A stretch of DNA of 64,000 nt from the NCBI GenBank assembly GCA_022539475.1, contig VCMS01000026.1, forward strand, positions 46,556 to 110,555, given 5' to 3'. The notes beneath the pieces were generated by a model. It did no database searches. It was not told the origin of the DNA and worked only from the letters and a program-made list of their open reading frames with translations. The DNA comes from Gracilaria domingensis. Taxonomy: Eukaryota > Rhodophyta > Florideophyceae > Gracilariales > Gracilariaceae. The translations under genes were made by a program, and so were the position numbers. Below, one piece after another: positions 21,286 through 44,248 of this stretch (positions are counted from its first letter, which is position 1; each line of letters starts with the position of its first letter).

Positions 21286-22310
21286 ATGATCTCCAACACC
21301 CGTATCCGTACCGTCCGTGTTTTCTTCATTGCTGCTGCCGCACTCCTCACAACCGTAAGTGCCCGTGCATTCTGGCCAAACCCGCAAGCTCTCATTCCCG
21401 GTAAACCCACCGCTTCTGCACCATCGCTACAAGCATCAGTCCGCACTGGAAAGTCCTCCGATTCCATCATCAAATTTGCCATGGTCGGCGGTAAGGTGAA
21501 GATCTATGTCAACGGCGAGAAGAAAAAGGTTAAGTCAAACACCAAGCAACTTGAGCTCCCGCTCAAAACCAATGACGTCGTCGCATTCGAATGCACCAAA
21601 ACCGGCTCTCCCACCAAAAAGGCAGGCTTGATGGCCTCTATCAGCCACGAAGGAAAGACCTATCGCACTGGTGTCGACCGCTTCAGCACCCGTGGTGGCT
21701 TCGCGAGCTGGCCGACGTGGGAGAAAAAGCACTGGGACCACTTCAAGGTATATCTCGACAAGAAGACCGGTGTCACTCACAACTTTTGTCACTGGAATGA
21801 CGCCGACAAGATCGACAACGACTGGACGAGTATTGACTCAAAGGCCTCTTTCATTTGGGCACTCACCGGCAAGAATAACAAGGAGGCGGCTCGCACTGTG
21901 TTCATTCGATTTGTCGTTGGCGGTGAAGGTTGTTCCGCGCAACCAGTACAGATTGGTGCCGGCAAGAACGGCGACAATGGGGATGATGATGAGGACGATA
22001 CTGACGACGACAAGGATGAAACGAAGAAGGGCAAGGGCAAGGGCAAGGGCAAGGGCAAGGGCGATGGCGACGATGACGACGACGACGACGATGACGACGA
22101 CGACGACGAAAACAAGAAGGGCAAGGGTAAGGGCAAGGGCAAGGGCGATGACGACGATGACGACGATGACGACGATGACAACGACGATGACGACGAAAAG
22201 AAGAAGGGCAAGGGCAAGGGCAAGGACGATGACGACGATGACGACGACGACGACGAAAAGAAGAAGGGCAAGGGCAAGGGCAAGGGCAAGGGCAAGGGCG
22301 ATGATGACGA

Positions 22311-22346
<36 letters not shown>

Positions 22347-22574
22347 ACAGAAGAAGGGCAAGGGTAAGGGCAAGGGCAAGGGCAAGGGAAAGGGCGATGA
22401 CGGCGATGAAGACGACGACGACGACGACGAACAGAAGAAGGGCAAGGGTAAGGGCAAGGGCAAGGGCAAGGGCAAGGGCGATGACGGCGATGAAGACGAC
22501 GACGACGACGACGAACAGAAGAAGGGCAAGGGTAAGGGCAAGGGCAAGGGCAAGGGCAAGGGCAAGGGCGATGA

Positions 22575-22610
<36 letters not shown>

Positions 22611-23178
22611 CAATGACGAAAAGAAGAAGGGCAAGGGTAAGGGCAAGGGCAAGGGCAAGGGCGATGACGACGATGACGACGACGACGACGACGACGAAAA
22701 GAAGGGCAAGGGCAAGGGCGATGACGACGATGACGACGGCGACGACGGCGACGACGACGACGAAAAGAAGAAGGGCAAGGGCAAGGGCGATGACGACGAT
22801 GACGACGATAAGGACGAAAAGAAGAAGCGCTCTGGTCGAGTGCCGCACCCGAAGGACAAGGACGACACCACAAGTGATGACGGCGCCGGCAAGCACAGCA
22901 CTTTAGCTGGGCAAAGCGATTCGAGCAAACCAGACGACTTTTGCGCGTGCCAGCTCACCGAGCGCCAAGGTGGCGAGTGCTACGACATGGAGGAGCCCGG
23001 CGCCAGCTCCGGAAGGTGCAAACCGCGCGCGTGCGAGCCCAAGTTCGAATGCGTGGCATCGAGCAGCACAATGTGCGTCAAGCGTCGCGGAGGAAGCAAG
23101 GTGGTGATGGTGACTCCCAACAACTGCATGACGGAAACGGCGGACGATGTGGAGATGTTGCTTCCTTACGAAGGGTGA
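21286..23178 (+). CDS. Secreted block-charged protein, PYEG family member 1 (630 aa)
   Basis: Not recognised; defines the family with three other genes here. Signal peptide (VFFIAAAALLTTVSARA), then mature ARAFWPNP. The N-terminal domain (~residues 60-225) looks beta-rich: KVKIYVNGEKKKV, NDVVAFECTKTG, KAGLMASISHEGKTYRTG, a Trp-rich WPTWEKKHWDHF, FCHWNDADK, DSKASFIWAL and VFIRFVVGGEGC. Residues ~235-515 are ten alternating blocks of (KG)n and (D)n, a polyampholyte coded by AAGGGC and GAC/GAT repeats. The C-terminal domain has eight cysteines (DDFCACQL, GGECYD, GRCKPRACEP, FECVA, MCVKRRGG, NNC) and ends in LLPYEG. Inference: an extracellular matrix, adhesive or ion-binding protein. It shares a promoter region with the divergent 155-aa gene. 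Its twin at 42620-44248 has seven blocks. Confidence 0.85.
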
Positions 23179-23437
23179 TAAGCCATGAGATGTGGGCACG
23201 TAGTGATCCTGGAATGCAGAACATGGATGCGCCAAAGATCAACTGCGGGTTTAGAAGCAAACGGTAGAAAAGATAATGGTGCTTGAGTGCGGAAAGTACG
23301 TGTACTATGGATTGAGAACAAGTAGCAAACAGTAAATGTCATCGAAAACAGACGTGTGCGCAGAAGAGCCACGACGATCGCAGGCTGCAAATTGTGCGCC
23401 ATTGATAATGAGTGCGGAGACGAAAGTCATGAGCAAA

Positions 23438-23542
23438 ATGTGCGTCAAGCGTCGCGGAGGAAGCAAGGTGGTGATGGTAGCACCCAACAACTGCACGACG
23501 GAGACGGCGGACGACGCGGAGATGCTGCCCCCGTACGAGGGG
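23438..23542 (+). pseudogene. 3' fragment of a PYEG-family gene at the duplication boundary
   Basis: 35 codons, MCVKRRGGSKVVMVAPNNC... to LPPYEG, match the very end of the 630-aa protein but with GC-richer codons and some replacements (V to A, M to T). There is no stop after PYEG; the frame runs on to 23584. Nothing upstream belongs to a family gene: immediately before it is the end of the inverted-duplication arm. So this is a truncated third paralogue fused to the breakpoint. Confidence 0.8.
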
Positions 23543-24885
23543 TGCGCAACGGCTGGGGTGGCCGCAGCGCGCGCTCACGGGTAGGGGATGATAACGCGCA
23601 GAACCGCCAGCAGCGCCGCTGATCCATGTTGGGCAGAGGTTCTCACGACGGCTCCGCGCTTGCAAGGCTGCAAGCGCGCGAGGAGCGCCGCGGCGGACCA
23701 CCCAGTACAGCGTCATCCCACACGACCCAGGGACGCGGCGCTGGCGAGCAGCGCTGGTGAGCAGCCGGCGCCGGCCGCGCGCCAGCCGCCACGGCGCGCG
23801 CGCGCGCGCAGGCGCCACCGCGCGCGCGCGCGCCCAAAAAAGGCGGCACGCGCGCGCCACGCGGCGGCGCGCGCTCGACGGCGCGCGCCGCCGCAGCTGG
23901 CGGCGGCGCGCGCGCGCCGCCGCCGCGTGCGTAGATGCGCGCTACGTTTGACGCGTATCATACCGCGCGCGCGCGCGCGCCAGCGTTTTATACGCCGCCT
24001 GGCGGCCGCGCCGCGCGCGCGCTCGCTGCAAGGCGCCCGCCCGCCCGCCGCGTCGCCCTCGCCCTCGCCCCTCGCCCCTCGCCCCTCGCCCCTCGCCCCT
24101 CGCCCCTCGCCCTGCTCCTCCCCCACCACCACCCCCCACCGCCGCCGTCCAAGCCGCTTGCCGCCGCCGGGAGCGCGCGCCATGGATTACGCGCAGTACG
24201 TGAGCCGCCGGCCGCCGTCGCCGCCCAGCGCGCGCGCGCGCGCGCGCGCACGCGCGCCGGGCGCGTCGGCGTCGCTGTCGTCCGCGGCGTCCACCGTGTC
24301 GTCCGAGCCGGCGCCGGCGCCGCCGCCGGCGCCACTCAGCGCGGCGTCGCGCCCGCCGTTCCACACGGCCGAGGCGGTGTCGAGCCAGCTGCACCGCCGC
24401 GCGCTGCGCGACGAGTACGCGGCGCTGGCCGCGACGGTGCTGGCAAACGTGCAGCTGCAGCGGCGGCGCGAGCGGCACGAGCTCATCCGGCTGCGGCTGG
24501 AGGCGATGCTGGCGGCGTGCGACGACGCGCCGCACCGGCGCGTGCTGGCGCTGGCGCTGCGCAAGGTGCGCGCGCGGCTGGACGCGCTGGCGACGCAGGC
24601 GCGCGCGCTGGAGCACGCGCGCGGCCGCATGCGCGTCATCGAGGCGCGCCACTTCCACGGCGCGGGCGCGCGCGCGCGCGCCGTCGCGCCGCGCCTGCGC
24701 GCGCTGCAGCTGCGGCGCGAGCACGTCGCCACGCTGGTGGAGCACATCCGCTGCACGCTGCACGACCAGGAGCGCATCCTGCAGCTGCTGGCCGCGCTGG
24801 CGGCCACGCTCGCGCGCCTGTACGCGCTCGTGTCGCACGTGAACCGCGCGGCCGGCGAGCCGCGCGAGCGCGCGGCCGCGTACGT

Positions 24886-24917
<32 letters not shown>

Positions 24918-27330
24918 GCGCGCCGCGCGGGAGCTCGTTCACGCACGAGGAGCGCGCGCGCCGCTCGTCGGCCGCCGCGCGCCGCGCGCGCGTGGCGCCG
25001 TTTGCAGCCGCGTCGTCGGCGGAGCAGCCCAAGTCCGCCGGCAGCGCGTGGCTTGGAGCCGACCGCGCGCGCGCGCGCGCCGACCGCAGCAACACGCGCT
25101 GCGACCGCCACGCCGGCCGCGCGCGCACGCTGCGCACGCAGCGCTCGCTGCCGCAGCGCGGCGCGCAAAACCGCCGGCTGCCGTTCGTGGTCAAGCGCGC
25201 GCTGTCGTACAACGCGTCGTCGGCGCACAGCGCGTGCGCCGCTCCGTCGCAGCCGCTGTGCGTGAATCGGAGCAACAGCGCTCACGAGCGAACCGCCACG
25301 CAGAGCGAGCCGCGGCTGTCGTTGAGCGACACGCTCAAGACAAACACAACGCCGTCGGCTGCGGCGAAAAGCTCGCGCTCATTTGGTGGTGGTGGTGGTG
25401 GCGGCGCGACGCACAGCTTTGCAGACGCGGATGCGCAGTCTGGCAGCAGCCCGGTGAGTCCGCACATGCGGCCGTTTGAGCACTGCTCGCTGGAGGATAG
25501 CATTGAGCACGCGCACGGCGGCGACGGCGATGAGGCGCAGCTGGAGCAGGCGGTGCTTCTGGACATCGACTCTCTCTGCACCGAGGCGTCGTCGGTGCTG
25601 TCTTCGTCGCGCGGCACGCAGCCCGAAATGGTTGAGAAGCGCTCGTCGTCGTCGCTGTTTGGCGGCGAAGGCAAGCGCGGCCTCGGCTTCAACCGGCTTG
25701 GCTTTCCCCGCGTTCGCACGTGGTCGCAGATCCGCAAGCTGTGGGGCGAGGTGAACGAGCTGTACGCGGTGGTGCTGACGCACGGGCCGCACCTGCTGGA
25801 GGAGAAGATCGTGAGCACGTCTTCGGTGCAGCACGGCGTGCTGGGCGAGTGGATCTCGCCGCGAAAGGGGCGCACGTCGGGCATGAAGGGCACGGTGCAC
25901 AAGACGATTGTGGCGGAGGCGGTGAGGAAAGTGGACGATGTGGTGTCGTGGCAGCAGAAGCTGATTGTGGCGATCAGGAGAGACAGCCTGGAGCAGCACA
26001 AGACGCTGCTGGAGGCGGACATGGTGATTTCAGAGGCTTACTTGCAATCGCTGCGGTCGCAGCCCATGTCGACATGAGCGCTTGTGCGGCTTGCTTGTGC
26101 GCCACACGCCATCTACGCCGGCTGTGGCGCGGAGAGCGCGCCGCCTTTGACGGGCGTTTCGCTAGTAGTTTTGTACAGGGCGTAGCCGCGGCTGACGTAG
26201 TGCGGTATGAGTACAGCGTAGGGTGTGCGTGCCGCGTTCGGTCACCCCCGAGCCTGCGTGATGATTCGCGCCGCCGCCGCCGCGCGCCGCCGCGCGCGAG
26301 CGGCTGGCCGTGACGCGCCCGCGCGAGCGCCACGCTCGCTCGCGCCGCCGCCGCCGCCGCCGCCGCCGCGTCGCGAGACGGCCGCGTCCAGCTTGCGCGC
26401 GCGCGCGCGCGCCGCCGTCTCGCGAGCGCGCGCGCCGCGCCGCCGCGCCGCCGCGCCGCCGCGCGCTAGCCTTCCTGCCGCCCCCGCCCGCGCACGGCGC
26501 GCCGGTGGAACGCGCGTCCACCGTATCGAGAGCTTCGCCCCCCCCCCCCGCCCAGCCCAAAAAAACGTAGCACCCGCGCGCGCGCGCGCCCTTCCCGCGC
26601 CGCCGCCGCCACCGCCGCCCGCGCGCCGCCCCCACGCCGCCGCGCCACCGCCCGCCCGCGCCATGCTGCCGCACGAGCGCTACGCGCAGCTGTGCGCCGC
26701 GCACGGCCACGCGCCGGACGCCGCGCTGCACGCCGAGCTGCGCGCGCGCGCCGCCACGCTGCACCTGCGCTCCGACGCGCAGCTCACGCTGCTGGCGCCG
26801 CTGTTCGAGCAGAGCGCCGCCGCGGCGCTGGCGCACGTCACGCAGCTGGTCGTGCGCGCCGCCGCCGTCTCCAGCCGCGCGCTGGCCGCGCTGCTGTCGG
26901 TGGTGCGCTCGCACCGCGCGCTCACCGCGCTCAGCCTGGCCGGCGTGCGGCTGGACGCCGCCGCCTTCGTCGCCATCTTCTCCGCGCTGGCCGCCGCGCC
27001 GCGCGGCCGCGTCAGCCGCCTCAACCTGGCGCGCACGGGGCTGGATGCGCGCGCCGCCGCCGCCGTGGCGCCGTTTCTGAGCGGCCAGCTTGCGGCGCTG
27101 CTGCACTTGGACCTGTCCAACAACCGCGCCAATCAACGTGGCGTGCGCATTGTGCGCAAGTATGTGGCGCTGCGCGACGCCGGCCTGCCGCCGCTGCACG
27201 TCGATCTCAGCGGCAATCTCGTCGTCGTCGAGACGCTCAACGCCCTCACGCACGGCGTGGGCGCCGTGCTTTCGCTGCCGGCCGCCGCGCTCATGCTGCG
27301 ACGCGCCGTGTTGCAGCACGCGCCCGTTCC
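23500..27330. other. Very GC-rich block with alternating CG tracts
   Basis: Composition changes sharply near 23500 and returns to average near 27330. Inside are many (GC)n runs (for example 23798-23830, 24225-24255, 26396-26412, 26573-26590) that could adopt Z-DNA. Long open frames appear in all six frames because stop codons are rare. I support only two genes here (24182-26077 and 26663-27857). The intervals 23543-24181 and 26078-26662 hold no gene I can support; both contain (CGC)n or (GCG)n arrays and CCCCTCG repeats (24065-24115). Confidence 0.8.
24182..26077 (+). CDS. Ala/Arg/Pro-rich protein with helical core and conserved-looking C-terminus, 631 aa
   Basis: Not recognised. The start is the ATG at 24182 (MDYAQYVSRRPPSPPS), preceded by a CG-rich leader. 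Layout: a disordered Pro/Ala/Arg N-terminus (~1-60); a helical stretch (~60-225) rich in Arg/Ala/Leu with heptad-like spacing (HRRALRDEYAALAATVLANV, RARLDALATQARALEHARGR); poly-Pro (10 residues) then a basic disordered middle; a Ser/Asp-rich segment; and a more normal C-terminal ~130 residues (TWSQIRKLWGEVNELYAVVL, GEWISPRKGRTSGMKGTVHK, WQQKLIVAIRRDSLEQHKTL). Of the six open frames this one has the most protein-like composition, and it retains structure into the less biased 3' end. A cytoskeletal or nuclear role would be guesswork. Confidence 0.6.
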
Positions 27331-27857
27331 GATACTCGCCAGCGTCGCCGTCTTCTTGTTCTCGCTCTTCACGCTGTTGACGTCGAGTTGCGTGTATCAC
27401 TGCTGTTTTCGACGCCCTGCCGCGTCTAGATGCATGCGTCGAGCCGATCATTGCTCCATTTTCTTGCTCATCGCGGGCACGTACACCCCGTTTGTGCTGA
27501 TATACGCTGCATCCTCTGTTTATGCGCGGTCCGATAACCCTGTTTAGCGTGTGGAGTTGCGCAATTATCGGCATTTATCGCAGTGTTCGCGCCTTGGGAA
27601 CCAATCGTAGCCGCGCGCTGTTTGCGTTGCTCACGGGCTGGTTGGGATCGTTTTCCGCCCGCACGCTTGTGGAGAGGATGCAAACAGGCGCTTTGCAACT
27701 TGTCGTTTTGGGAGGAGTTGTTTACTCTGTCGGCATCGTATTTTACCTTCTGGGTAAAAAGCGCCCCATGATGCATGTCATCTGGCATCTCGCCGTTTTG
27801 CTGGGCGGTGGTTTGCACTATGCCGCTATATGGCAGTATGTTCTGGCATCGGTTTGA
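26663..27857 (+). CDS. LRR - hemolysin III/PAQR-type membrane protein fusion, frameshifted
   Basis: From ATG 26663: about 185 residues of leucine-rich repeats of the RNase-inhibitor kind (LTALSLAGVRLDAAAF, VSRLNLARTGLDARAAAA, LLHLDLSNNRANQRG, LHVDLSGN), then directly the HlyIII/PAQR fold: VETLNALTHGVGAVLSL, the S..YH motif (TSSCVYHCC), RADHCSIFLLIAGTYTPF, and after the frame change FSVWSCAII, GGVVYSVGIVFY and the H..WH motif (MMHVIWHLAVLLGG). These are the metal-site residues of the family. The first frame ends at 27547 (TAG); the rest is read from about 27522 in the +1 frame to 27857, and the join falls where no residues are missing. Either a one-base sequence error or a real mutation. Family members are seven-helix membrane proteins. 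The N-terminal half is in the GC-rich block, the membrane half is not. Confidence 0.75.
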
Positions 27858-28810
27858 ATCCCAACACAATTCTCAGCGCACCGTCCAAGTTACTTGTATC
27901 AGCACAATAGGAGCAGTCCAAAGCGCCCGCCCGGTTATGCTCTCCATCATGGACTGCCACAATCACCCACATTTGTACAACTAGCTTTTCCCGTTCCTCA
28001 AGTTGTTTTCATATGCTGCGCTTCTCATTCATGCTTACGATCGCTTCAAATTCTTCCCAACAAGCTCCTCACATGATGGAAAGAATGCAATTTTGCCCCG
28101 GCTTTGTACGCCTTGTATTCAAACTTGGCTACACGTTTGGCATATCTGATCCACAACTACTACGTCAGGAAAAACGTATGTCCAAGCTTCCAGATAGTTA
28201 CACAACTGTTCCACGCCATCAGTATCAGGTAATTCGTTTTGAATGCTATGGGGCACTTCATCCCAGTTCGTGTTTTATTCCGGCGTTCTCTCTCAAATTT
28301 TCAACCACGCACACCGCAGCTTGGGCGTCGTCATCTCCTCTCTTGCCTGCCCCAAGGCGCCGATTGCTTCAACATCTTAACTGCATTTAGCGGTTCATGG
28401 TTTACATGCCCACAGAAGCACATTTCCAAATAGCACAGAAAGGAGAAGGCTAATCCTTTTTTCTCGTTTCCATCCCGATTGAGGTGTCCACGCAATCGAA
28501 TGCGCATGCAATTCGTGAGAATCACAGGGTTGTTCATGAAAACCTTGGTGTGCAACGTCCGTATTCTTTCTTTCGGAACCAAATCATTTACCCAGGGTAT
28601 GATATGGCAATCTAGATCATTCTTTTGGGGGGTTATGTAATCCTAAGGTTTCCTTCCCAGACATATTGTGAAGTACTGTGTGGGCATTTTTTCTTTCTTC
28701 AACAACGTTTGCCCAGAACAATGTAGTGGGACAACAAACATCATGAGCAAAGAGAGTTCACTAAATCATCTGCTCATTGTTCAGCGGGGTGAGGGACGTG
28801 GGCGCGGTAC
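27858..28810. other. Intergenic ~0.95 kb, no gene seen
   Basis: Average composition, with short open frames on both strands (28013-28390, 28331-28582) that carry no recognisable domain. The right end is the upstream region of the 321-aa PYEG-family gene. Confidence 0.5.
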
Positions 28811-28818
28811 TATAAAAG
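28811..28818 (+). promoter_or_regulatory. TATA box of the 321-aa PYEG-family gene
   Basis: GGTACTATAAAAGAAAC, TATAAAAG core 136 bp before the ATG at 28954. It has the same ACTATAAAAG decamer as the other three family promoters, but without the C-run just downstream. Confidence 0.75.
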
Positions 28819-28953
28819 AAACTTCGTCGGACTGCATCCTCATCAACCAATCCTTCCTGGCCAGCTTTCTCACCGTTCCAACCTACGATCCCGACTACTC
28901 TCTCTTCGCCAACGTTCGCGTAATAACTGACTAACTGCGGCGAAATATTAGAA

Positions 28954-29919
28954 ATGAAGACGTCTTTTGCTACCCTTCTGTGTCTGATTGCCGCCTTGTT
29001 AACTGCCGTTCGCGGTCGATCTTTTTGGGGGGCACTGTACAACAACACCTTCGGCAATCCACCCTCTCTTCTTCCTTCCCTGAAACCCACTGCAAGGTTT
29101 CTTCATGGAAACCATGCGATCATCAAATTCTCTGCATACAGTGGAAAGGCTGTTCTGTTCGTAAACGGAATAAGGAAGAGAAAGGCTGGAGTTACTCCGA
29201 GCTACATCAGACTGTTCCTGATTCAACATGATGTTGTGGCATTCAAGTTAAAGAGGTTTGGAGAACTGGCAGGGCTGATGGCAACTATCAAGTGGGGCAA
29301 GGAAACATATCGCACTGGAGTTGATCGTTTCACTGTCAGTGAAGATTATCACGCATGGGAGGCATGGGAGAAACAGGCGTGGAATGCACTTGTCACTTAC
29401 AAGGATGGGAAAACAGGCGTTGTGCATACATTCTGCCACTGGGATTTGGCGAGCAAGACAGGCACTACCACAAACAAGTTTGACAGCAAGGCTTCTTTCG
29501 TTTCAAGACTCATCGCAAATCATCAGAAACCAACTGGTGCTGTCTTCGTTCGATTCGTGATCGGGGGAGAGAATTGCAAGCTAACAAAAGATGATCAGGA
29601 AGAGGGCGGTGATGACAACTCCAAGGTAGACGATTCAGAGAGGGTAAGTGGGAGCAATGACGATGGGGATTCTAGTGGCTTTTGTGCTTGCAAACTTACT
29701 GACGGGAGAGGTGGCGAGTGCTACGACATGGAACAACCTAATGCGGTCTCTGGACGATGCACAAAGCGCCCATGTCAGCCATCTTTCGAATGCGTTGCTT
29801 CAAGTGAGCAGGTTTGTGTCAGGCGTGTAGGTGGAACCAGGGTGATCATGGAAACTCCCAACTATTGCAAGACAATCACGGCAGATGACATGGAGACCCT
29901 GGTGCCATACGAGGGCTGA
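28954..29919 (+). CDS. Secreted protein, PYEG family member 2 (321 aa)
   Basis: Short member of the family. Signal peptide (MKTSFATLLCLIAALLTAVR), then a mature start like RSFWGALYNNTFGNP. The N-terminal domain keeps all landmarks: KAVLFVNGIRKRK, LAGLMATIKWGKETYRTGVD, WEAWEKQAWNALVTYKDG, TFCHWDLASKTG, DSKASFVSRL, VFVRFVIGGENC. The linker is only ~40 residues, acidic (EEGGDDNSKVDDSERVSGSN), with no KG blocks. The C-terminal eight-Cys domain is intact (GFCACKL, GGECYDME, GRCTKRPCQP, FECVA, VCVRRVGG, NYC) and ends LVPYEG. Comparison with the long members shows that the charged block is an add-on between two conserved domains. Single exon, own TATA box. Extracellular location is inferred from the signal peptide; function unknown. 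Confidence 0.85.
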   Translation: MKTSFATLLCLIAALLTAVRGRSFWGALYNNTFGNPPSLLPSLKPTARFLHGNHAIIKFSAYSGKAVLFVNGIRKRKAGVTPSYIRLFLIQHDVVAFKLKRFGELAGLMATIKWGKETYRTGVDRFTVSEDYHAWEAWEKQAWNALVTYKDGKTGVVHTFCHWDLASKTGTTTNKFDSKASFVSRLIANHQKPTGAVFVRFVIGGENCKLTKDDQEEGGDDNSKVDDSERVSGSNDDGDSSGFCACKLTDGRGGECYDMEQPNAVSGRCTKRPCQPSFECVASSEQVCVRRVGGTRVIMETPNYCKTITADDMETLVPYEG

Positions 29920-34040: not shown

Positions 34041-34048
34041 TATAAAAG
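34041..34048 (+). promoter_or_regulatory. TATA box of the 348-aa PYEG-family gene
   Basis: CTACTATAAAAGATGCCCCC, TATAAAAG core 148 bp before the ATG at 34196. As in the 630-aa gene, a C-run follows the TATA box after a few bases. Confidence 0.75.
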
Positions 34049-34195: not shown

Positions 34196-35242
34196 ATGAA
34201 AGTCAGTATCTGTCAATTTACCTTTATCTTTGCCACCATTTACACCGCGGTGCAAGCTCGCGCTCTTTGGGGGGCTCCATACGTCAATACTCTTGGAAAT
34301 GGATTCGGTTCTATGTTTTCACTTCGCCCGTCTACGAGGGTTCCCGGCAGCAAGATGTCAACCATCAAGTTCTCCGCGTACGACGGCATAGCCACTCTAT
34401 ACGTGAACGAAAAGGAATACGGGAAAGCAACGTCCACTACACCTGTAGTTATCGAGTTGCCACTCGAAAGGGAAGACTTGGTGGCCTTCAAAGCAGAGAA
34501 GGCTGGCTCAATGCCTGGTCTGATGGCAACTATTTCATGGGGGCAAAGGAAATACGTAAGTGGTAGAGATCGCTTCACAGCTCGAGGAGACTATTCCAAG
34601 TGGGATGCCGGAGAACAACTAGGTTGGAATTCCGTGGTAACATATATGCACAAATCAAAGGGAAACACTCGCACGTTCTGTCATTGGGACCGTGCAGACA
34701 AAACAGGAATTGAAACTGGCAAGTTCGACAGTTCGGCTTCGTACATTTGGAGATTATCGTCGACGGATGGAAAGGAGGATGTTCCTGTCGACACTACATA
34801 CTTCCGTTTGGTAATCGGGGGAGAAAATTGTGGCGTGGACCCACAGAACAGCAACGATAAGACCTCCAAGAAGAAAAGCGACGATGAAGATGATGATGAC
34901 AGCCAACCCTCTCATCGTGTACCGCAACGAAAGCAAGGAGGCCAGCAGCCAGGCTCGACCTCTGGTATCGAAGGACTAAGTGACAGCGTTTCCTCTGAAG
35001 GATTCTGCGCATGTAGATACACAGAATCTAAGGGTGGAGATTGTTACGATATGGATGATCCAACTGCAGACTCCGGAAAATGTAAGCCTCGCCCATGTGA
35101 GCCGAAGTTTGAATGTGCTGCTACTGGTGAAAAGATCTGTGTGAAACGTCGAGGAGGAATGAAAGTGGTCATGACGTCATCAGGTAGCTGTATTAACGTC
35201 TTTGCAGACGACACCGAGAGTCTAATACCATATGAAGGCTAA
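34196..35242 (+). CDS. Secreted protein, PYEG family member 3 (348 aa)
   Basis: Signal peptide (MKVSICQFTFIFATIYTAVQ), mature start ARALWGAPYVNTLGN. The N-terminal domain has TLYVNEKEYGKA, DLVAFKAEKAG, MPGLMATISWGQRKYVSGRD, WDAGEQLGWNSVVTY, TFCHWDRADKTG, DSSASYIWRL and FRLVIGGENC. The linker (~70 residues) has one basic/acidic switch (SKKKSDDEDDDD) then a Pro/Gln/Gly/Ser-rich part: a minimal version of the charged block of the long members. The C-terminal eight-Cys domain is complete (GFCACRY, GGDCYDMD, GKCKPRPCEP, FECAA, ICVKRRGG, GSC), ending LIPYEG. Nearest relatives in the window are the 321-aa and 630-aa proteins. Function unknown; secretion inferred. Confidence 0.85.
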   Translation: MKVSICQFTFIFATIYTAVQARALWGAPYVNTLGNGFGSMFSLRPSTRVPGSKMSTIKFSAYDGIATLYVNEKEYGKATSTTPVVIELPLEREDLVAFKAEKAGSMPGLMATISWGQRKYVSGRDRFTARGDYSKWDAGEQLGWNSVVTYMHKSKGNTRTFCHWDRADKTGIETGKFDSSASYIWRLSSTDGKEDVPVDTTYFRLVIGGENCGVDPQNSNDKTSKKKSDDEDDDDSQPSHRVPQRKQGGQQPGSTSGIEGLSDSVSSEGFCACRYTESKGGDCYDMDDPTADSGKCKPRPCEPKFECAATGEKICVKRRGGMKVVMTSSGSCINVFADDTESLIPYEG

Positions 35243-36453
35243 TGGATGTGAGTCATGTTGAATAACATAGACGCAAGGCAATGTCGTAGGTATAACGGGC
35301 CCATCAAGAGCAATCTGTAACCTCTCGTCAAAACTGAAACGCACACCACGCTTCACGTTTGTTTGGGGAGAGTAATGTTGGAGAGGTTTCCAAATTTCAC
35401 AAACAAATATCCATCATGGTAGTTAAAGATATATAGGAAAACGTTCCACTGTTGCAACATACTCCCGTATAGAACAAAAGAACAGAGTTTAGCCTCCCTT
35501 GTCGGCAGAAAAAAGCCTCCGAACCTAAACGGATTTATAATAGGGGCCATTGTTGGTCTTGACTTCGAGTGCATTCTGCAGCCATGATACAGGTTTGCAC
35601 CAAACTAAGAGCTCTTTATGTTAATCTGTTCATAACTTTTGCTTTTGATACAAAAGAACATGAAATCGAACCTCAAGAGGCCCAAATGCTTTGCCTAAAC
35701 TGAAATCTGTCGAGCTTAAGAACATCGCGGTTTACCCATATGAAGGGCTTAGTTCTTCCCTTCGTTCCACTTAAATGTATCAAGAACCCTCATTGCTCCT
35801 GTGAAACATATTTCAAACGAATCCACTTCATCTCCTGATTGACCCTGAGCATAGTCGACCAGAACCCATGTTCGATAGCTTGCATTGAGACATAAATTGC
35901 ACGACCGTTGGCACAGGGTCCTGCCCGCCGTCGTTTACCTGTGAGCGCCGCGCAAGTCGAGCGCCTTTATCTCATTGTGCGGAGCATAAAGGGTAGAGTA
36001 ACCCGCTTGGCAAATGATAGAATGCGCGAAGGATTGTAGCAGTCGGCCTTCATGTGGTATGTGTGACTTCGGAGCGCAATTGAGCAGCTGGAACGAAATG
36101 CATGGGCTTACATGCGGGTCTCCCAAGCAAACCAGAAACTTGGCGGAGATAAACGACATGAGTCGCGACGGCGTCGATTTGAAGCTTGCTTTGCGCCGTT
36201 CCGTTCGATGCATCTGGCAGATTCGACGAAGGCTACGTGCTGAGCACGTGTCCTAAATTAAGCTTTAATTTAATGTCTGCCAATAAATAGAGTGGCATCG
36301 TCGTCGGGTCTGGCGCAACCTTGAGCCGCGGAGTTGGAATCTACTCGTCAACTTTTTCGTTATACAAGGCCTAGCACTCGTCCCTAGGAAGTGATTTGGA
36401 CACGGCTTTCACCCCATTAAAAGCTTATAGAGGCGTCTTGATTCCATCTTCAA
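35243..36453. other. Intergenic ~1.2 kb, no gene seen
   Basis: Short domainless frames on both strands (for example 35935-36256). The last ~150 bp are the presumed promoter of RRP9; no TATA box like those of the secreted family was found. Confidence 0.5.
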
Positions 36454-37845
36454 ATGGTGGGCAAGCTTGCGACGAGAAAGCGGGCAAGGTCTGCAACCGA
36501 GCAAAAGAGTCAGGGCCCTTCTGCGAAGCGGAAGCAGCCAGAGAAAGACGAAGAAATCTTGTCCGATGAGGTTGACAGCGATCCTGAAGTCGATAAAAGC
36601 TCAGTGGAGTCATCCAGTGAATCGGAGCATGAGAATGAAACGGTTGAGGAAAAAAGGCTTCGCTTAGCTCGTGCTTACCTTCGTCATGTTGGAGTGTCCG
36701 AAGATGCCGCTGCTTCGGATGGTGATGATTCAAACGGGGAAGAATTGGGGGCGAGCAACCAAATGCTTCGTGAACACGCTTTGCGAGACCAGGCTAAGTC
36801 TTTCGCGCATATCGCTGACCGCTTCTCTGCATCGATTAGCAGCATTAAGATCAATAAGTGCAAAGGTCATGTTCTATCGCCAACGTGCGTTGCGTTGTGC
36901 TCTCTCGACGACGCGACAGCCGTGTCTGGCGGTAAAGATGCCAGGTTGATTGTATGGGATGTCGAGACGGGGAAACGTCGCCATGTGTTCAAACCAACTA
37001 TTGACGAAGCAAAAAAGAAGAATCCTGTTGCCGCGAAAGGCCATGTTGGTAACATCCTGGCAGTGGCAATCACCGATGATGGAAATACTGCAGTTTCCGG
37101 GGGCAGAGACGGTCTTATCCGTGTTTGGGATGTTCGTGCTGGGAATTTAATACAGACTTTGCGAGGCCATAGAGACGCTGTGACTGGGCTCACTTTTAGG
37201 TCAGGTTCGCGGCAGCTGTTCTCAGCATCAGCTGACCGGACAGTTAAGATATGGGATATCAACGAAATGGCTTACGTGGAGACCCTGTTCGGTCATGGAG
37301 GTGATGTTAACGCTATTAGTTCTATGTCAATGGAGCGCGCATTATCTTGTGGAAGGGACGGCACGCTCCGGTTGTACAAAGTAGTCGAGGGATCGCAACT
37401 TGTATTTCGCAATGCGAACACCATTTCATTGGATACCGTTGCCATGATTAGCGAGCATCGTTTCGTATCAGGAGGAGACGACGGGACTGTTTGCTTATGG
37501 CAAATGAATAAGAAGAAGCCGTTATCAATCATCGAACACGCTCACGGCTCCGGTCTTGGCTGCGAGAACTGGATTTCCGCCGTATCTGCCTTTCGAAACG
37601 CAGACCTAGCCGTATCTGGAGCGGGTGATGGCTTCCTTCGTTTCTGGAAATGTGAAGATGTTCCGAAATTACAACCTGTGGGTAGTTTGGAAGTTGGTCC
37701 CGGGTTTGTTAATGGAATTGCAATCGGACATCAAAATCGAATCTTGGCGACTGCGGTTGGTACAGAGCATAGATTAGGGCGATGGGCATCGATCAAAAAG
37801 TCTAAGAACATGGTTCAGTTCCTTTCTTTACCAAATTACGACTAA
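36454..37845 (+). CDS. RRP9: U3 snoRNP-associated WD40 protein RRP9/U3-55K
   Basis: 463 residues. A basic then acidic disordered N-terminus (~1-60; KRARSATEQKSQ, DEVDSDPEVD) is followed by the RRP9 hallmark ETVEEKRLRLARAYLRHV, then seven WD repeats (AVSGGKDARLIVWDVETG, AVSGGRDGLIRVWDVRAG, FSASADRTVKIWDINEM, FVSGGDDGTVCLWQMN, AVSGAGDGFLRFWKC). The C-terminus has TAVGTEHRLGRWASIKKSKN, matching the RRP9 phrase 'EHRLGRW'. Family role: binds the box B/C of U3 snoRNA in the SSU processome in the nucleolus, for 18S rRNA maturation. Start is the first ATG of the frame. Convergent with SMC6 (87 bp between stops). Single exon. Confidence 0.92.
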   Translation: MVGKLATRKRARSATEQKSQGPSAKRKQPEKDEEILSDEVDSDPEVDKSSVESSSESEHENETVEEKRLRLARAYLRHVGVSEDAAASDGDDSNGEELGASNQMLREHALRDQAKSFAHIADRFSASISSIKINKCKGHVLSPTCVALCSLDDATAVSGGKDARLIVWDVETGKRRHVFKPTIDEAKKKNPVAAKGHVGNILAVAITDDGNTAVSGGRDGLIRVWDVRAGNLIQTLRGHRDAVTGLTFRSGSRQLFSASADRTVKIWDINEMAYVETLFGHGGDVNAISSMSMERALSCGRDGTLRLYKVVEGSQLVFRNANTISLDTVAMISEHRFVSGGDDGTVCLWQMNKKKPLSIIEHAHGSGLGCENWISAVSAFRNADLAVSGAGDGFLRFWKCEDVPKLQPVGSLEVGPGFVNGIAIGHQNRILATAVGTEHRLGRWASIKKSKNMVQFLSLPNYD

Positions 37846-37932
37846 AGAGATTGCAATACTTCGTGCCGCGATATATCTCACGAATTGACGTCATACGCTG
37901 CAAGTTTCAGCAACGGAGAGGACCAGAAACAT

Positions 37933-40900
37933 CTATGCGTTTCCAGTGAACTCATCAATTGTACTTTGCCTTCTTCCAGAGCTGTCCGTCGCAGGTCTCG
38001 GAGGTTCCAATACTTGAATGCGAATAGAAGGTGAGCTCTCCAGATGTGGCAGCTTTTGAGGAGTGATGATGATTATCTGTCTGTCTGACAAGTACTGTGT
38101 GCAAAAGTCCGTCATCTTCCTGAACGCCACTCGTCTGGTTGCGTCGTCTTGGAACACATCAATTTCATCAAACACACGCACTGGCATTTGGCATACTTCT
38201 GCGAGAGCAAGAATAAAAGCCAGGGTTGTATAGCTTCGTTCACCACCGCTCATGGAACTGAGTTGTTCTATTGTGTGTCGTTCTCCGTCCTTCATATCAT
38301 GATGTTGCAGCTGAGTTGTAATGCGAAGCTCGGTCTCACCACTGCTGTTGGTGCGAAACCGCAGATTACCTGTATGACCTTTGGCACCCAAGAACTGACG
38401 AAAGTGATTACGAACCAACGTTTTTAAGACCCTGTTCAGCTTGAATAGCTTTTCTCTTCGTCTCTTAATCCCGACTAAGAGGCAGTTTTCATAGTGGGCA
38501 ATCCTCGCTCGTTTCTCCTGGTTATCTTTGTACTGCTTTACAGCCTGCAGATACTCTGTTTCAATTTCATGCGCACTTTTTCCACCCCGTCGCTTCTGTT
38601 CAGTTCGAAGTCGTTCTTGTAACGTTCTCACTCTACGTTGGGCCTTCTCGGAAGACTCCTTGGACCAATCAACGTTTTTTGGACTAGAACCTAGAGATCT
38701 TGCAGCCTCGGTGTATTCCACAACTTTGTTTTGTTGAACGTTCACCTCTCTGCGTGCCATCTTCAGCCTCTCTGAAGCCTTCTCTGAATCTGTCTTCAGA
38801 GTTCGATGTCTAGACTTCACCCTCGCCACCTCCTTGTTTATACTTTCTAGTGATTCAGTTAAATGAGCAGCCTCGTTGCGAAACTCTTCGCTCTCCGCAC
38901 TCACTTTTCGATGCTCTTCTTGCAGTGATGCTTTTGATTGTTCGAAGTGGCTGGCTTCCTGTTGGACCTTGCCCCGACGGTGATCAAGATTCTTCATTGT
39001 CGACTCAAGATCAGCAATTTCCCGCTCAAACGGCTCAGGATTGAACGCGTTTTCTGCGTGGTTTAGCTGATCTTCAATTGTGTTCTTTCGTCTCTGCATG
39101 TTTGTCAGCTTCGCCCTGCTGCTAGAAAGGTCCTTCACAGTTGCTTCCAATTTATTCAGTAGGCCGCGGAGTTCATCAGATCGATGCGCCAACATGTCTT
39201 CACTTCTCCTCACATCTTCATTAGCTTGACTCGCATCTCTTGCCAATGCCGCCAAGTAAGGTCCCATGTCTTTCGTTAGATACCGCGCACAAACACCATG
39301 GGGGGCATGTCGAAATGTGTTCGACCCGTTTCGTATGTATGCTCTATCTGCGCGCTTGTTCCATACCGTGTGCACATTACGAACTCTCTTCCAAGCCAAG
39401 TTCCTCACGTCATCCTCGGTACTGAGCACCACTTTCTCAATTTGCGCCATGTCTAACAATGCATTGAACACAGCATCATGTTCGATGTCCATGGTTTCGA
39501 GTATTGTCCGATAACGACTGTCTTGTAAAGCAGGAACATCGTTATCTCCAACACGATACCTTTTCCGAGTCAAGTCAGAAATCAGAACGTTGGGCCTAAA
39601 CCTTCCTGGAAAAGTTGACTTAAGCAGCGCTGCGTCTTGCACATCATGAACGATATAGGTCATTAACAGATTCCTTCCCATAGCAACTTCAATTGCTCTA
39701 TCCCATGATTGATCTCGCAACTTCACATACTGCGCTAGAGGACCGATTGGCGGATGCCTGAAACGGGACCTACGCTGATTTATCCCTCTGGTTACCTGAA
39801 CCACGTCATCTCCAAATCGCGCTACACCAGTCCTATTCTTTGCCATGGCTGTTTCATGTATGTGTTGCCGCCTCTTGTCCTCGAATTCCGTCCTGCACCT
39901 TGAGAATTCTTGCTTTGCCTTCTGAACAGCTTCCTCTTTGTAATACTTTTCCTCCAAGAAAGCTGCTTCTTCACTAGCCATAGTCTGAATTCTTTCCTGC
40001 AGTTCCTTCTCCTCGAGTCCTAGCTTCCGAAACTCTTCCAGTAGCCGTGATTTCTGTTCTTGACCTGCAAAATGCTCTTTTCGAGCCTGTTCCATTCTCA
40101 AATTAGCATCTTTGACTCGTTTCTCGACGTCATCTGCTTCAGAATCAACGTCGACCAACCTCCTTCTAAAGTTCTTCAGTTCCGCGTCCGCCTTTAGTAC
40201 GTTCCTCCGTATTTCTTGACAAGTCTTATTGAACATCTGTACTTTGCTGGACGCTTCATCGACCTTCTGGTGACGACTGTCTCTCTCAGAAACCAAGGAA
40301 TCGAGCTTCTTTCCAATCTTGGCAAGCTCGCTAGAGAGCTGCTCCGCTCTCGGCGCAATTTCATCGTGGGTCTTGCGTTCGTACTCAAGGCGTTTCTCGT
40401 CGGCTTCGTGGACAATCACCCAAGCGCTGAGAATTTCAGCATCTCGTATGGTCTTATCAATATTCTTCATGGCTTGGGAATTTCGGTAGTTAGCTTCCAG
40501 TTTTGCCAACTTCCTATCCGTTTCAGGCAGTGCGTCTTCCGTTCGTTTCAATATAGTTCGGATTTCCTCAGTCACACCTATTGTCAATTTCAACTCAGTC
40601 TCTAGCGGAGCTAGAAGAGTGGCTTCCTGATAAAACTGATAGTGCTTTGTCGGCTTTTGACCTGCCAGGAATGTCTTACTTTTCGTCTGCGTCAGGATAG
40701 AGACCGGGTTCTTTACCATGAAGCCGAAGTGATCAACTATATTCTGAACTTCTTGATATGGTTTCACACCCTCGCCAAGAGGAACGGGTTTCGAGAGACG
40801 TCCCCTAACCGACCAGGAATTGGCACCATTTCTGCGCAATCTCCTCTCAATCGTAATAATGTCGCCGTACTCTTCATGCTTGTAGCTCATATCCAGATCT

Positions 40901-41613
40901 TTGTCGTCGCCTTTGCGATTCCAGATGTTTATGAGAACAAGAGCATCGTTCTTCGTGTGCTGAATGAGGTCTTGGATCTTGGTGCCACGCTCGGTATCAC
41001 GTGCACTTCCTGCTAAACCAACTTGCAAGGCTGCAACGATGGCGCTCTTGCCCGACCCATTCTCTCCGTTTATGATGTTCACATTGGGCCCAAACGAGAT
41101 CTTGAAACGGGAATGGCACATGAAACGATACATCTCTATAGAATTCAGAATACCACAAGTTGCGAAACCAGAGCTCTTTCGCAGAGCAGGTACTTCGGAG
41201 GACGGATCGGCTGATTCTGATACATCCTCCATATCTTCCTCGTCCTCCTGTTCTTCGTCATCCACCTCTACCTCTTCCATTTCTTCCTGCGAGTGCATTT
41301 CTTCGGGCTGCATGTCATCCTCTTTGTCATCCTCTGCTTCCAAGAGCATCTCCTTCTCTTCAATTTCTTCACGTTTGGATTGGCCATTGGCTTCCGCAGC
41401 CTGGCTCCTGCTCCGTGTACGATGCCTAAAGGTTGCATTTGGCGCTGGCGTTATTTCATCTTCATCATACGAAACTCGTCGGCTTCGATACGCCTGTGAC
41501 TGAGGTGTGGTGTACACGGTTTCCGGCCCTTCAAACTTCTGCTCTGTCTCGGCATACTGCCGTTGGCGCTTAACCTGTCGTCGACTTTGGCGTTCCGCGG
41601 CGCGCTTCGGCAT
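37933..41613 (-). CDS. SMC6: SMC6, structural maintenance of chromosomes protein 6
   Basis: 1226 residues, somewhat longer than usual (about 1100) because of an acidic, disordered N-terminus of ~145 residues. Then come the head: MYRFMCHSRFKISFGPNVN and Walker A GENGSGKSAI (~180), then Q-loop region VSILTQTKSKTFLAG; a long coiled coil; the hinge (~615-770, PPIGPLAQYVKLRD to TFRHAPHG); a second coiled coil; the ABC signature SSMSGGERSYTTLAF (~1117); and Walker B VRVFDEIDVFQDD (~1144). The phrases FMCH and FDEIDVFQD identify SMC6 rather than SMC5. Known role: with SMC5 and Nse proteins, DNA repair and resolution of recombination intermediates in the nucleus. Single exon, start at the ATG at 41611-41613. 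Confidence 0.95.
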   Translation of the reverse strand: MPKRAAERQSRRQVKRQRQYAETEQKFEGPETVYTTPQSQAYRSRRVSYDEDEITPAPNATFRHRTRSRSQAAEANGQSKREEIEEKEMLLEAEDDKEDDMQPEEMHSQEEMEEVEVDDEEQEDEEDMEDVSESADPSSEVPALRKSSGFATCGILNSIEMYRFMCHSRFKISFGPNVNIINGENGSGKSAIVAALQVGLAGSARDTERGTKIQDLIQHTKNDALVLINIWNRKGDDKDLDMSYKHEEYGDIITIERRLRRNGANSWSVRGRLSKPVPLGEGVKPYQEVQNIVDHFGFMVKNPVSILTQTKSKTFLAGQKPTKHYQFYQEATLLAPLETELKLTIGVTEEIRTILKRTEDALPETDRKLAKLEANYRNSQAMKNIDKTIRDAEILSAWVIVHEADEKRLEYERKTHDEIAPRAEQLSSELAKIGKKLDSLVSERDSRHQKVDEASSKVQMFNKTCQEIRRNVLKADAELKNFRRRLVDVDSEADDVEKRVKDANLRMEQARKEHFAGQEQKSRLLEEFRKLGLEEKELQERIQTMASEEAAFLEEKYYKEEAVQKAKQEFSRCRTEFEDKRRQHIHETAMAKNRTGVARFGDDVVQVTRGINQRRSRFRHPPIGPLAQYVKLRDQSWDRAIEVAMGRNLLMTYIVHDVQDAALLKSTFPGRFRPNVLISDLTRKRYRVGDNDVPALQDSRYRTILETMDIEHDAVFNALLDMAQIEKVVLSTEDDVRNLAWKRVRNVHTVWNKRADRAYIRNGSNTFRHAPHGVCARYLTKDMGPYLAALARDASQANEDVRRSEDMLAHRSDELRGLLNKLEATVKDLSSSRAKLTNMQRRKNTIEDQLNHAENAFNPEPFEREIADLESTMKNLDHRRGKVQQEASHFEQSKASLQEEHRKVSAESEEFRNEAAHLTESLESINKEVARVKSRHRTLKTDSEKASERLKMARREVNVQQNKVVEYTEAARSLGSSPKNVDWSKESSEKAQRRVRTLQERLRTEQKRRGGKSAHEIETEYLQAVKQYKDNQEKRARIAHYENCLLVGIKRRREKLFKLNRVLKTLVRNHFRQFLGAKGHTGNLRFRTNSSGETELRITTQLQHHDMKDGERHTIEQLSSMSGGERSYTTLAFILALAEVCQMPVRVFDEIDVFQDDATRRVAFRKMTDFCTQYLSDRQIIIITPQKLPHLESSPSIRIQVLEPPRPATDSSGRRQSTIDEFTGNA

Positions 41614-42345
41614 AATGGACTGAAACGTGCAGGAGGAAAGGTACGGCTAACAGTGTACGCACTGAGGGCAAGCAGATCACAGCAGCCAGGTCTGCGCAGG
41701 CACTTGCTAGATATCGCACGCCCAATACGTTTTCGTTGTCGTGAACTTGCAGGCGGAGTGGAACGGTGACAAAATGTGGGTCAGAGCTGCATCTCAGTTG
41801 CGCGGGGGGGGTTGGTGAGATGGGAAGGTTTATCGGACATTCCAGGCGACAAACGTGGTGAGTTGGCGTGGCGCGGTTTTGCGATTTGCGCGGAAATTGG
41901 CGCCAAACTTGGGAATGCCTTCCTTCGGGTATCTAACGATATCTAGAGCTACAGTAGCAGTGTCTACGCGGCACGTGTCGCAAGCGCTGCAGGCGCCGCA
42001 TAGCTGTCATCCGATCAAGGTGATGAAACGAAGGCAACAGTCCCGCGGAAGGGGTGCGCGTTTCGTGGCGGAACGCGAACAGTTCCGTGTCAACAGTCAC
42101 CCGCAAGCGTGAAAACACTGCACAGACGAACTCGTACGCGAGAAGAATCTTTCCGCTGGCCACAGAGTTCACGCTTCGCCAACCGCAAGAAGAGGAATGG
42201 AGCCGCATACTCGTGTTGTTCGACACCTGCGAGACACTCAATCGTGGCCACTGTGCGAGCTGGTGTCCTGAATCAAGACGAAAGTCGCGACGCTGGCTGA
42301 AGCTCGTTCCTCATGGATCTATAGCATCCACAGTTTAAATTCTCT
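41614..42345. other. Intergenic ~0.73 kb, SMC6 promoter side
   Basis: No gene seen. Short overlapping frames on both strands lack domains. The right end is the outer boundary of the right arm of the inverted duplication. Confidence 0.5.
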
Positions 42346-42619
42346 ACTCATGACTTTCGTCTCTGCACTCATTATCAATGGCGCACAGTTTGCAGCATTA
42401 GTCTCTCTCATACCCGCCTACGATCGTCATGGCTCTCTGGGCACATCTATTTTCAATGACATTTACTGTTTGCTACTTGTTCTGAATCCATAGTACACGC
42501 ACTTTCCGTACTCAACGACCATTATCTTTTCTATCGTTTGCTTCTAAACCCGCAGTTGATCTTTGGCGCATCCATATTCTGCATTCCAGGATCACTACAT
42601 CCCCAAATCTCATGGTTTA

Positions 42620-43175
42620 TCAGCCTTCGTAAGGAAGCAACATCTCCACATCGTCCGCCGTTTCCGTCATGCAGTTGTTGGGTGTTACCATCACCACCTT
42701 GCTTCCTCCGCGACGCTTGACGCACATTTTGCTGCTCGATGCCACGCATTCGAACTTGGGCTCGCACGCGCGCGGTTTGCACCTTCCGGAGCTGGCGCCG
42801 GACTCCTCCATGTCGTAGCACTCGCCACCTTGGCGCTCGGTGAGCTGGCACGCGCAAAAGTCGTCTGGTTTGCTCGAATCGCTTTGTCCAGCTAAAGTGC
42901 TGTGCATGTCGGTGCCGTTATCACTTGTGGTGTCGTCCTTGTCCTTCGGGTGCGGCACTCGACCAGAGGGCTTCTTCTCGTCGTCATCTCCATCGTCGTC
43001 GTCGCCATCATCATCTTTGTCATTGCCCTTGTTCTTTTCGTCCTTATCGTGGACATCGTCGTCATCGCCCTTGCCCTTGCCCTTGCCCTTCTTCTTTTCG
43101 TCGTCGTCGTCGCCGTCGTCATCGTCGTCATCGCCCTTACCCTTGCCCTTGCCCTTGCCCTTGCCCTTCTTCTTT

Positions 43176-43213
<38 letters not shown>

Positions 43214-44248
43214 ATCGTCGTCATCGTCCTTACCCTTGCCCTTGCCCTTGCCCTTGCCCTTGCCCTTGCCCTTCTTCTTTTCGTCGTCATCGTCGTCGTC
43301 GTCGCCGTCGTCGTCATCGTCGTCATCGCCCTTACCCTTGCCCTTGCCCTTGCCCTTGCCCTTCTTCTTTTCGTCGTCATCGTCGTCGTCATCGTCGTCA
43401 TCGTCGTCATCGCCCTTGCCCTTGCCCTTACCCTTGCCCTTCTTGTTTTCGTCGTCGTCGTCGTCATCGTCGCCATCGCCCTTGCCCTTGCCCTTGCCCT
43501 TGCCCTTCTTCGTTTCATCCTTGTCGTCTTCAGTATCGTCCTCATCATCATCCCCATTGTCGCCGTTCTTGCCGGCACCAATCTGTACTGGTTGCGCGGA
43601 ACAACCTTCACCGCCAACGACAAATCGAATGAACACAGTGCGAGCCGCCTCCTTGTTATTCTTGCCGGTGAGTGCCCAAATGAAAGAGGCCTTTGAGTCA
43701 ATACTCGTCCAGTCGTTGTCGATCTTGTCGGCGTCATTCCAGTGACAAAAGTTGTGAGTGACACCGGTCTTCTTGTCGAGATATACCTTGAAGTGGTCCC
43801 AGTGCTTTTTCTCCCACGTCGGCCAGCTCGCGAAGCCACCACGGGTGCTGAAGCGGTCGACACCAGTGCGATAGGTCTTTCCTTCGTGGCTGATAGAGGC
43901 CATCAAGCCTGCCTTTTTGGTGGGAGAGCCGGTTTTGGTGCATTCGAATGCGACGACGTCATTGGTTTTGAGCGGGAGCTCAAGTTGCTTGGTGTTTGAC
44001 TTAACCTTTTTCTTCTCGCCGTTGACATAGATCTTGACCTTACCGCCGACCATGGCAAACTTGATGATGGAATCGGAGGACTTTCCAGTGCGGACTGATG
44101 CTTGTAGCGATGGTGCAGAAGCGGTGGGTTTACCGGGAATGAGAGTTTGCGGGTTTGGCCAGAATGCACGGGCACTTACGGTTGTGATAAGTGCGGCAAC
44201 AGCAATGAAGAAAACACGGACGGTACGGATACGGGCGTTGGAGATCAT
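42620..44248 (-). CDS. Secreted block-charged protein, PYEG family member 4 (542 aa)
   Basis: Right-arm twin of the 630-aa gene. The signal peptide and N-terminal domain differ at only a few positions (for example ARAFWPNPQTLIP against ARAFWPNPQALIP). The main difference is the charged region: seven (KG)n/(D)n blocks instead of ten, the last one degenerate (KNKGNDKDDDGDDDDG). The eight-Cys domain is the same apart from rare changes (MEESGASS for MEEPGASS) and ends LLPYEG. Uninterrupted frame, own TATA box at 44414-44421 (minus strand). Both copies therefore look functional. Expansion or contraction of the hexanucleotide and trinucleotide repeats explains the length difference. Function unknown; secreted by inference. 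Confidence 0.85.

Follow-up and report, generated by a model that had tools for sequence, protein, structure and literature searches.

A putative lectin-like family of secreted-looking two-domain proteins in the red alga Gracilaria domingensis

A 64,000-nucleotide stretch of the genome of the red alga Gracilaria domingensis (GenBank assembly GCA_022539475.1, contig VCMS01000026.1, positions 46,556 to 110,555, forward strand; hereafter the window) carries four genes whose products share both of their ends, close with the residues PYEG and vary greatly in length between them. What are these proteins related to, and what might they do? A first-pass annotation, made from the letters alone, had described an unrecognized secreted family and had suggested a role in matrix assembly. 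Our analysis supports a distant relationship of the N-terminal domain to the sugar-binding domain of the type found in the Pleurotus ostreatus lectin POL and in carbohydrate-binding module family 67 (CBM67). The four open reading frames (ORFs) and their parts are as follows, in window positions.

21286..23178, + strand: member 1, ORF of 630 amino acids, intact frame, signal-peptide-like start and PYEG end
~21454-21933, + strand: member 1, N-domain
21934-22941, + strand: member 1, charge-block linker of 336 amino acids
22942-23175, + strand: member 1, eight-cysteine C-domain
28954..29919, + strand: member 2, ORF of 321 amino acids, intact frame
~29110-29577, + strand: member 2, N-domain
29578-29682, + strand: member 2, linker of 35 amino acids
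29683-29916, + strand: member 2, C-domain
34196..35242, + strand: member 3, ORF of 348 amino acids, intact frame
~34355-34831, + strand: member 3, N-domain
34832-35005, + strand: member 3, linker of 58 amino acids
35006-35239, + strand: member 3, C-domain
42620..44248, - strand: member 4, ORF of 542 amino acids, inverted copy of member 1
~44080-43601, - strand: member 4, N-domain
43600-42857, - strand: member 4, linker of 248 amino acids
42856-42623, - strand: member 4, C-domain

The four ORFs lie exactly where the first-pass annotation had placed them, and the FCHW motif, the eight C-terminal cysteines and the PYEG end are each present in all four. Three other motifs that it had listed proved less uniform: VIGGENC is found in two members, but the other two read VVGGEGC; GLMASI is likewise replaced by GLMATI in two; and TYRTG.DRF holds in three, while member 3 reads KYVSGRDRF. 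The proposed signal peptide agrees with a hydrophobic N-terminal stretch in every member, leader sequences being judged here from hydropathy and not by a signal-peptide program. The best 10-residue window at the N-terminus scores 1.97-3.22 in the four members and at most 3.83 among the nine proteins measured, all nine of which have such a stretch and none of which shows membrane-like hydropathy later in the chain. This suggests that the proteins are secreted. The architecture that the four genes share is far beyond chance.

The four genes are not four independent witnesses. Members 1 and 4 belong to opposite arms of a single inverted duplication, so that the window holds only three independent sequences, which are 43-46% identical.

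18107..23356, + strand: left arm of the inverted duplication, bearing member 1
42442..47491, - strand: right arm of the inverted duplication, bearing member 4
23399..23542, + strand: extra C-domain fragment immediately downstream of member 1

The arms are 97.2% identical across 4951 aligned bases, and members 1 and 4 originated by recent segmental duplication. The difference in length between them amounts to 88 linker residues with the frame kept in both, and would have arisen through in-frame gain or loss of linker units only. The same duplication also contains a second secreted-looking cysteine-rich protein (19900-20577 on the - strand and 44957-45634 on the + strand), transcribed divergently from members 1 and 4. 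It gave no match in a Pfam scan and has relatives at C76:88025, C9 and C5 (contigs of the assembly are written here as C and a number, followed where needed by a position).

The family extends beyond the window. A protein search of the alga's own 77.9-Mb assembly (680 contigs), which was the whole of our eukaryotic search, returned 22 matches, and the counts that follow are lower bounds. At least eight complete genes have the full architecture, namely the four of the window and C76:106984, C22:47499, C14:242849 and C48:231146. C76:70041 is a broken copy with its two ends in different frames, C181:59156 is a broken copy with a stop, and at least eight further fragments represent the C-domain. 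A ninth gene, on C62, has its N-type domain at the C-terminus, preceded by a linker rich in proline, serine and threonine and by a different cysteine module; that this module might be the PYEG C-domain was rejected, and a search with the module returned only itself. A search with the C-domain of the C48 gene gave nine matches, comprising only the eight complete genes and the copy at C76:70041. In this genome the C-domain occurs only with its N-domain partner or as broken fragments. In a tree that included member 4 and C76:70041, C62 grouped with C48 at 90/96, and none of the six inner branches reached the starred threshold. No relatives were found in bacterial and archaeal genomes, viral contigs, phages or plasmids by pattern scans or single-protein searches, which could miss distant prokaryotic or viral relatives.

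Pieces of these genes have also been carried elsewhere. A dispersed repeat on C241, C18, C26 (21620-24817), C23 and C49 (loci L021, L022, L023, L025 and L026) has captured the end of a PYEG gene: its copies are 93-98% identical over aligned pieces of ~1.0-3.2 kb, where the fetched loci end, and bear 312-355 bp of the 3' end, 86-88% identical to window positions 22823-23177, with stops in four of the five. At C181:62976-66083 (locus L028) a C-domain fragment adjoins a second copy of the 3'-terminal part of the helicase gene that the window carries at 14066-17719; lying side by side, the two point by eye to a rearranged duplicate common to the window and C181. Phycobilisome linker domains, a mark of red algae here, matched at 14 places in the genome; four of these are on contig C680, which may be the plastid genome, and the other ten are spread over further contigs.

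What, then, is the N-domain? We built profiles from two alignments, A6, with eight N-domain sequences including those of C48, C14 and C62, and A2, which also omits C62; neither contains member 4, whose sequence is nearly that of member 1, or either of the broken copies (C76:70041, C181:59156). Searched against the sequences of the PDB, the A6 profile found POL at a whole-sequence E of 3.2e-4 to 3.8e-4. POL entries were the only PDB matches at E<=10, and both repeats of the lectin aligned in the same register. A control profile of reversed A6 sequences matched nothing in the PDB. The seven N-domains without C62 also gave POL as their best PDB sequence match (E 0.021), and the C62 domain on its own retrieved POL too (E 0.017). 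In profile-profile comparison, the probability of a match to POL was 93.7% for A6 and 83.7% for the window members alone, against 0.07% for a reversed profile and 0.2% for the C-domain profile, each figure being a single comparison with a target chosen beforehand. These comparisons support a distant relationship, predicted from sequence, between the N-domain and sugar-binding domains of the POL/CBM67 type.

Other searches with the N-domain returned little. Nothing significant was found in Pfam (with the four window members, the seven N-domains and C62), NCBIfam or PHROGs. Matches to MecD/MecA and to PHROGs (E 0.009-0.32) each occurred in one member only and were dismissed, and PDB matches to neuropilin-1 (at FCHW; E 0.4 and 0.23) and to glutathione peroxidase 3 (E 0.28) were taken as chance. 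With POL as the query, the alga's genome yielded nothing, although an empty answer from such a search shows little. The Pfam family PF08531 (Bac_rhamnosid_N, cut-off 25 bits) recognized one POL fragment at 27.7 bits and scored the other at 23.7 bits, and had no match in the four window members, the seven N-domains or C62. The first-pass annotation had known no family for these proteins, and for the C-domain we likewise obtained no significant match in the libraries searched; the N-domain, in contrast, matches POL once distant paralogues are aligned. The same annotation had named a significant profile match to a characterized family as what would speak against it, and for the N-domain we obtained such a match at moderate strength, but not with the profile of the window members.

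Several results weigh against a lectin-like reading. The profile of the window members found no POL in the PDB, so that the link rests on the distant paralogues, and member 2 alone found no lectin there. The E-value of the A6 profile sums two POL repeats, the better of which alone has an independent E of 0.25, and the alignment spans ~70 of 156 profile positions; the second half of the N-domain, which carries FCHW and ends in GGE.C, is not covered by it. In two MAFFT alignments the calcium-binding aspartate pair of POL falls at AADD and ASDD, and none of the eight aligned members has DD at this place: C62 reads DN and C48 ND; member 3 (Y-D-G) and C22 (Y-E-S) have a turn longer by one residue; member 1 reads V-G-G (member 4 being identical to it at this place), member 2 Y-S-G, C14 F-G and C76 L-G. 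Since the window members lack the aspartate pair, they are diverged relatives at best, and sugar binding could have been lost with the pair. The two AlphaFold models made from window sequences are poor, with a mean pLDDT (predicted local distance difference test) of 47.6 for the first and 45.1 for the second. Foldseek placed a C2 domain first and CBM60 second for the first model; for the second it ranked the mycobacterial MmpL5-S5-AcpM complex second, and C2 domains also stood above POL. No match reached E 0.001 for either model.

The same low-confidence models also list POL and an alpha-L-rhamnosidase that bears CBM67. For the second, the rhamnosidase entries 3w5m and 3w5n took ranks 1 and 3 (probability 0.99 and 0.98), a match that the output does not allow us to assign to the CBM67 domain of the enzyme, and POL took ranks 9 and 10 (0.94 and 0.97). 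For the first, POL appeared at ranks 4, 16, 28 and 36 (0.57, 0.82, 0.30 and 0.66). The Foldseek score includes amino acids and is hence not fully independent of the sequence match. Judged from its residues, the N-domain is not a canonical POL/CBM67 lectin, though it may bind glycans in another way.

A comparison with described proteins makes both the likeness and the distance plainer. POL (PDB 6t0q, 6t1d, 6kbj, 6kbq, 6kc2, 6li7 and 6lik) resembles the family by profile over the strand-rich first half of the domain, where most members have A-T-[IV]-...-Y-V-N-G followed by G-[LVIF]-[MIL]-A-[ST]-I. POL consists of two tandem copies with an Asp-Asp calcium site, whereas the PYEG proteins have one copy without the pair and add, beyond the alignment, a conserved second half (FC-W...C) and the cysteine-rich C-domain. 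Work on Shictin, a lectin of Lentinula edodes, groups Shictin, POL and the CBM67 of alpha-L-rhamnosidase as calcium-dependent beta-jelly-roll sugar binders (PMC11512411). Compared by description only, Shictin has the same gross plan as the PYEG proteins, with a signal peptide of 26 residues, an N-terminal CBM67-like domain of 159, short linkers and a C-terminal domain of 94, in all 289 residues. It differs in being described there as calcium dependent, with the adjacent aspartates D43/D44 as ligands according to structure-based modeling (PMC11512411). For alpha-L-rhamnosidase (PF08531), the likeness consists of 3w5m as the top Foldseek match of a low-confidence model, with the matched domain not given, and of the POL fragments that match PF08531, one of the two above the cut-off; unlike the enzyme, the PYEG proteins have no catalytic domain, and no member matches PF08531. 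The red-algal lectin classes surveyed in PMC11766507, G. domingensis included, would share with the family that they are lectins of red algae. That survey used 26 Pfam lectin models (PMC11766507), a design expected to miss the PYEG family, which has no significant Pfam match.

The C-domain has 78 residues, and its eight cysteines lie at identical offsets (0, 2, 12, 25, 30, 36, 44 and 61) in all four window members, giving the invariant spacing CxC-x9-C-x12-C-x4-C-x5-C-x7-C-x16-C, with an adjacent CC in none of the eight complete genes. Its alignment (A3) was made without member 4, and neither the broken copies nor the fragments are in it. The best Pfam match was Fam20C (E 0.013), in one of seven members, with no family common to two; such single-member matches were non-significant and were dismissed. 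NCBIfam and PHROGs gave none at E<=1, and the PDB sequences none at E<=5.

The linker is as variable as had been claimed, with 35-336 residues, but the elastic charged center of the first-pass annotation describes a minority, long linkers being present only in two of the eight complete genes and in C76:70041. The long forms of members 1 and 4 coincide with tandem repeats:

22033..22763, + strand: minisatellite of ~84-bp units, encoding the (KG)n blocks that alternate with (D)n blocks in the linker of member 1
43046..43546, - strand: matching minisatellite in the linker of member 4, called as several overlapping arrays

Both linkers are strongly net acidic (149 D/E versus 81 K/R in member 1). 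Linkers in the remaining six complete genes span 35-72 residues, that of C48 being rich in proline, serine and threonine (24 of 45).

Are these genes maintained and expressed? Only members 1, 4 and C76:70041 are not near synonymous saturation, more distant pairs being at or near it. Among these three, the ratio of non-synonymous to synonymous rates (dN/dS) is 0.10-0.42 overall. Between members 1 and 4 it is 0.40 in the N-domain, with 3.0 synonymous and 4.0 non-synonymous changes, and in the C-domain 0.18 (3.0 and 2.0), the counts for this pair being small; between member 1 and C76:70041 it is 0.36 and 0.10, respectively. The codon changes suggest purifying selection. Upstream of the window genes lie the following TATA boxes:

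21113..21118, + strand: TATA box of member 1, 173 bp upstream of the ATG
28811..28816, + strand: TATA box of member 2, 143 bp upstream of the ATG
34041..34046, + strand: TATA box of member 3, 155 bp upstream of the ATG
44416..44421, - strand: TATA box of member 4, 173 bp upstream of the ATG

An exact TATAAA lies within 400 bp of the ATG in eight of ten family genes, a count that leaves out the C181 copy and in which three of the ten (members 1, 4 and C76:70041) are close copies. Seven of the eight fall at 143-176 bp (-173, -173, -143, -155, -147, -144 and -176), and that of C62 at -80; C14 has TATATA at -177, and the scan upstream of C22 gave no TATA box. None of eight other window ORFs, with starts set mechanically, has TATAAA within 400 bp upstream. 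The chance of the hexamer at 130-180 bp is 0.0096 per position, and the window as a whole has more copies of it than shuffled sequence does (25 versus 13.84 expected). The boxes support a prediction of transcription from ordinary core promoters. Together, the conserved ORFs, the eight complete genes, the low dN/dS and the TATA boxes support the family as real genes. By eye, a CATCA-like motif ~20-35 bp 3' of several TATA boxes (e.g., window 28811-28850) may be an initiator candidate.

We give about an even chance to what we consider the best explanation of the whole, that these are secreted lectin-like two-domain proteins of the wall or mucilage with a disulphide-rich tail. The protein would be exported to a galactan-rich wall or mucilage, the red-algal matrix being galactan-based (PMC8307928). 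There the N-domain would bind a wall or microbial glycan through a site that has given up the usual calcium ligands, a disulphide-bonded C-domain would anchor or oligomerize the protein, and the linker would set the distance between the two; in members 1 and 4 its (KG)n and (D)n blocks would bind sulphated galactan and divalent cations. That the protein resides in the wall, and what its linker and C-domain do there, is what we infer, which counts among the points against this explanation. A role in a glycan matrix gains plausibility from the lectin-like head, and matrix assembly itself is again something that we infer. A bolder version, which we regard as a long shot, is a new class of wall protein in which a CBM67-like head has lost its calcium site and taken on a new ligand (agar or its fragments), joined to a disulphide-rich domain of new fold by a linker that in some members is made of charge blocks and evolves quickly in length; it would cross-link galactan or be the extracellular sensor, so far missing, for agar oligosaccharides.

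Could the domains be something else altogether? That the N-domain is an unrelated beta-sandwich, its match to POL due to convergence or chance, seems improbable to us. The failure of the window-only profile and of member 2 to find POL, the single-repeat E-value, the low-confidence models and an E of ~0.02 before pooling with C62 all speak for it; it would have to explain why the pooled profile reaches 3e-4 with no competitor at E<=10 and both repeats in register, why the reversed control is empty, and why Foldseek with models of window sequences also lists POL and a CBM67-bearing enzyme, albeit not fully independently. For the C-domain, eight cysteines in a small secreted domain recall the plant-type non-specific lipid-transfer protein. 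The motif of that family has CC and CXC in the middle, and the spacing in the C-domain, lacking the adjacent pair, is unlike it; moreover, none of seven members has a significant Pfam match and the low-confidence model predicts strands rather than helices, which makes this identity barely credible.

If the head is lectin-like, its function could still lie elsewhere, and the main rival is a role in defense or recognition: secreted lectins that bind bacterial or oomycete glycans, or fragments of agar, and that are switched on by an attack instead of contributing to wall construction. Besides the lectin-like head, the TATA promoters in eight of ten genes suit such a role, and the duplicates, broken copies and fragments fit a family with fast birth and death. 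Gracilaria conferta is reported to respond to agar oligosaccharides, and lectin genes of Pyropia to rise on infection (PMC8307928). A long polyampholyte linker would be unexpected in a soluble defense lectin, and dN/dS, taken over whole domains, stays clearly under 1 in the pairs short of saturation and gives no hint of positive selection; we hold a defense role to be unlikely, though a serious contender. The suggestion of the first-pass annotation was a structural one, of matrix-assembly proteins with two protein-binding heads, neither of them sugar-binding, that cross-link other proteins. It accords with the loss of the canonical calcium ligands in the window members and with invariant ends around a variable center, but the nearest recognizable relatives are sugar-binding domains, and linkers are short (35-72 residues) in six of the eight complete genes, so that elasticity is not general to the family. 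We find this scaffold role improbable as well.

Among the top results of a search of the open-access literature, no paper dealt with the PYEG family by its title or the start of its abstract. The kind of domain is known. What appears to be new is this red-algal family, the architecture that includes an orphan cysteine-rich domain, and the calcium ligands having been lost. If the relationship is true, the POL/CBM67-like domain, met here in fungi and in a bacterial enzyme, extends to a secreted red-algal family. Little is known, as far as we are aware, about the proteins of walls that form agar or about those with which Gracilaria senses agar fragments, and the PYEG family provides concrete candidates. 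Members 1 and 4, as recent copies that differ in length in the linker only (336 versus 248 residues), offer a ready-made natural comparison.

The window has some further features apart from the family. A GC-rich island at 23600-27600 stands out, with 75% GC at 24-26 kb, 69% at 26-28 kb and 62% at 22-24 kb against 44-57% in the other bins. It contains an ORF of 829 amino acids with no Pfam match and one of 440 amino acids with a haemolysin-III-like domain (PF03006, 5e-18), preceded by what look by eye like leucine-rich repeats. An ORF at 623-2530 on the - strand encodes an AIG1-type GTPase (PF04548, 1.3e-14), and two long ORFs at 52738-59606 on the + strand appear by eye to encode the gag-like and pol proteins of a Ty3/gypsy-type retroelement.

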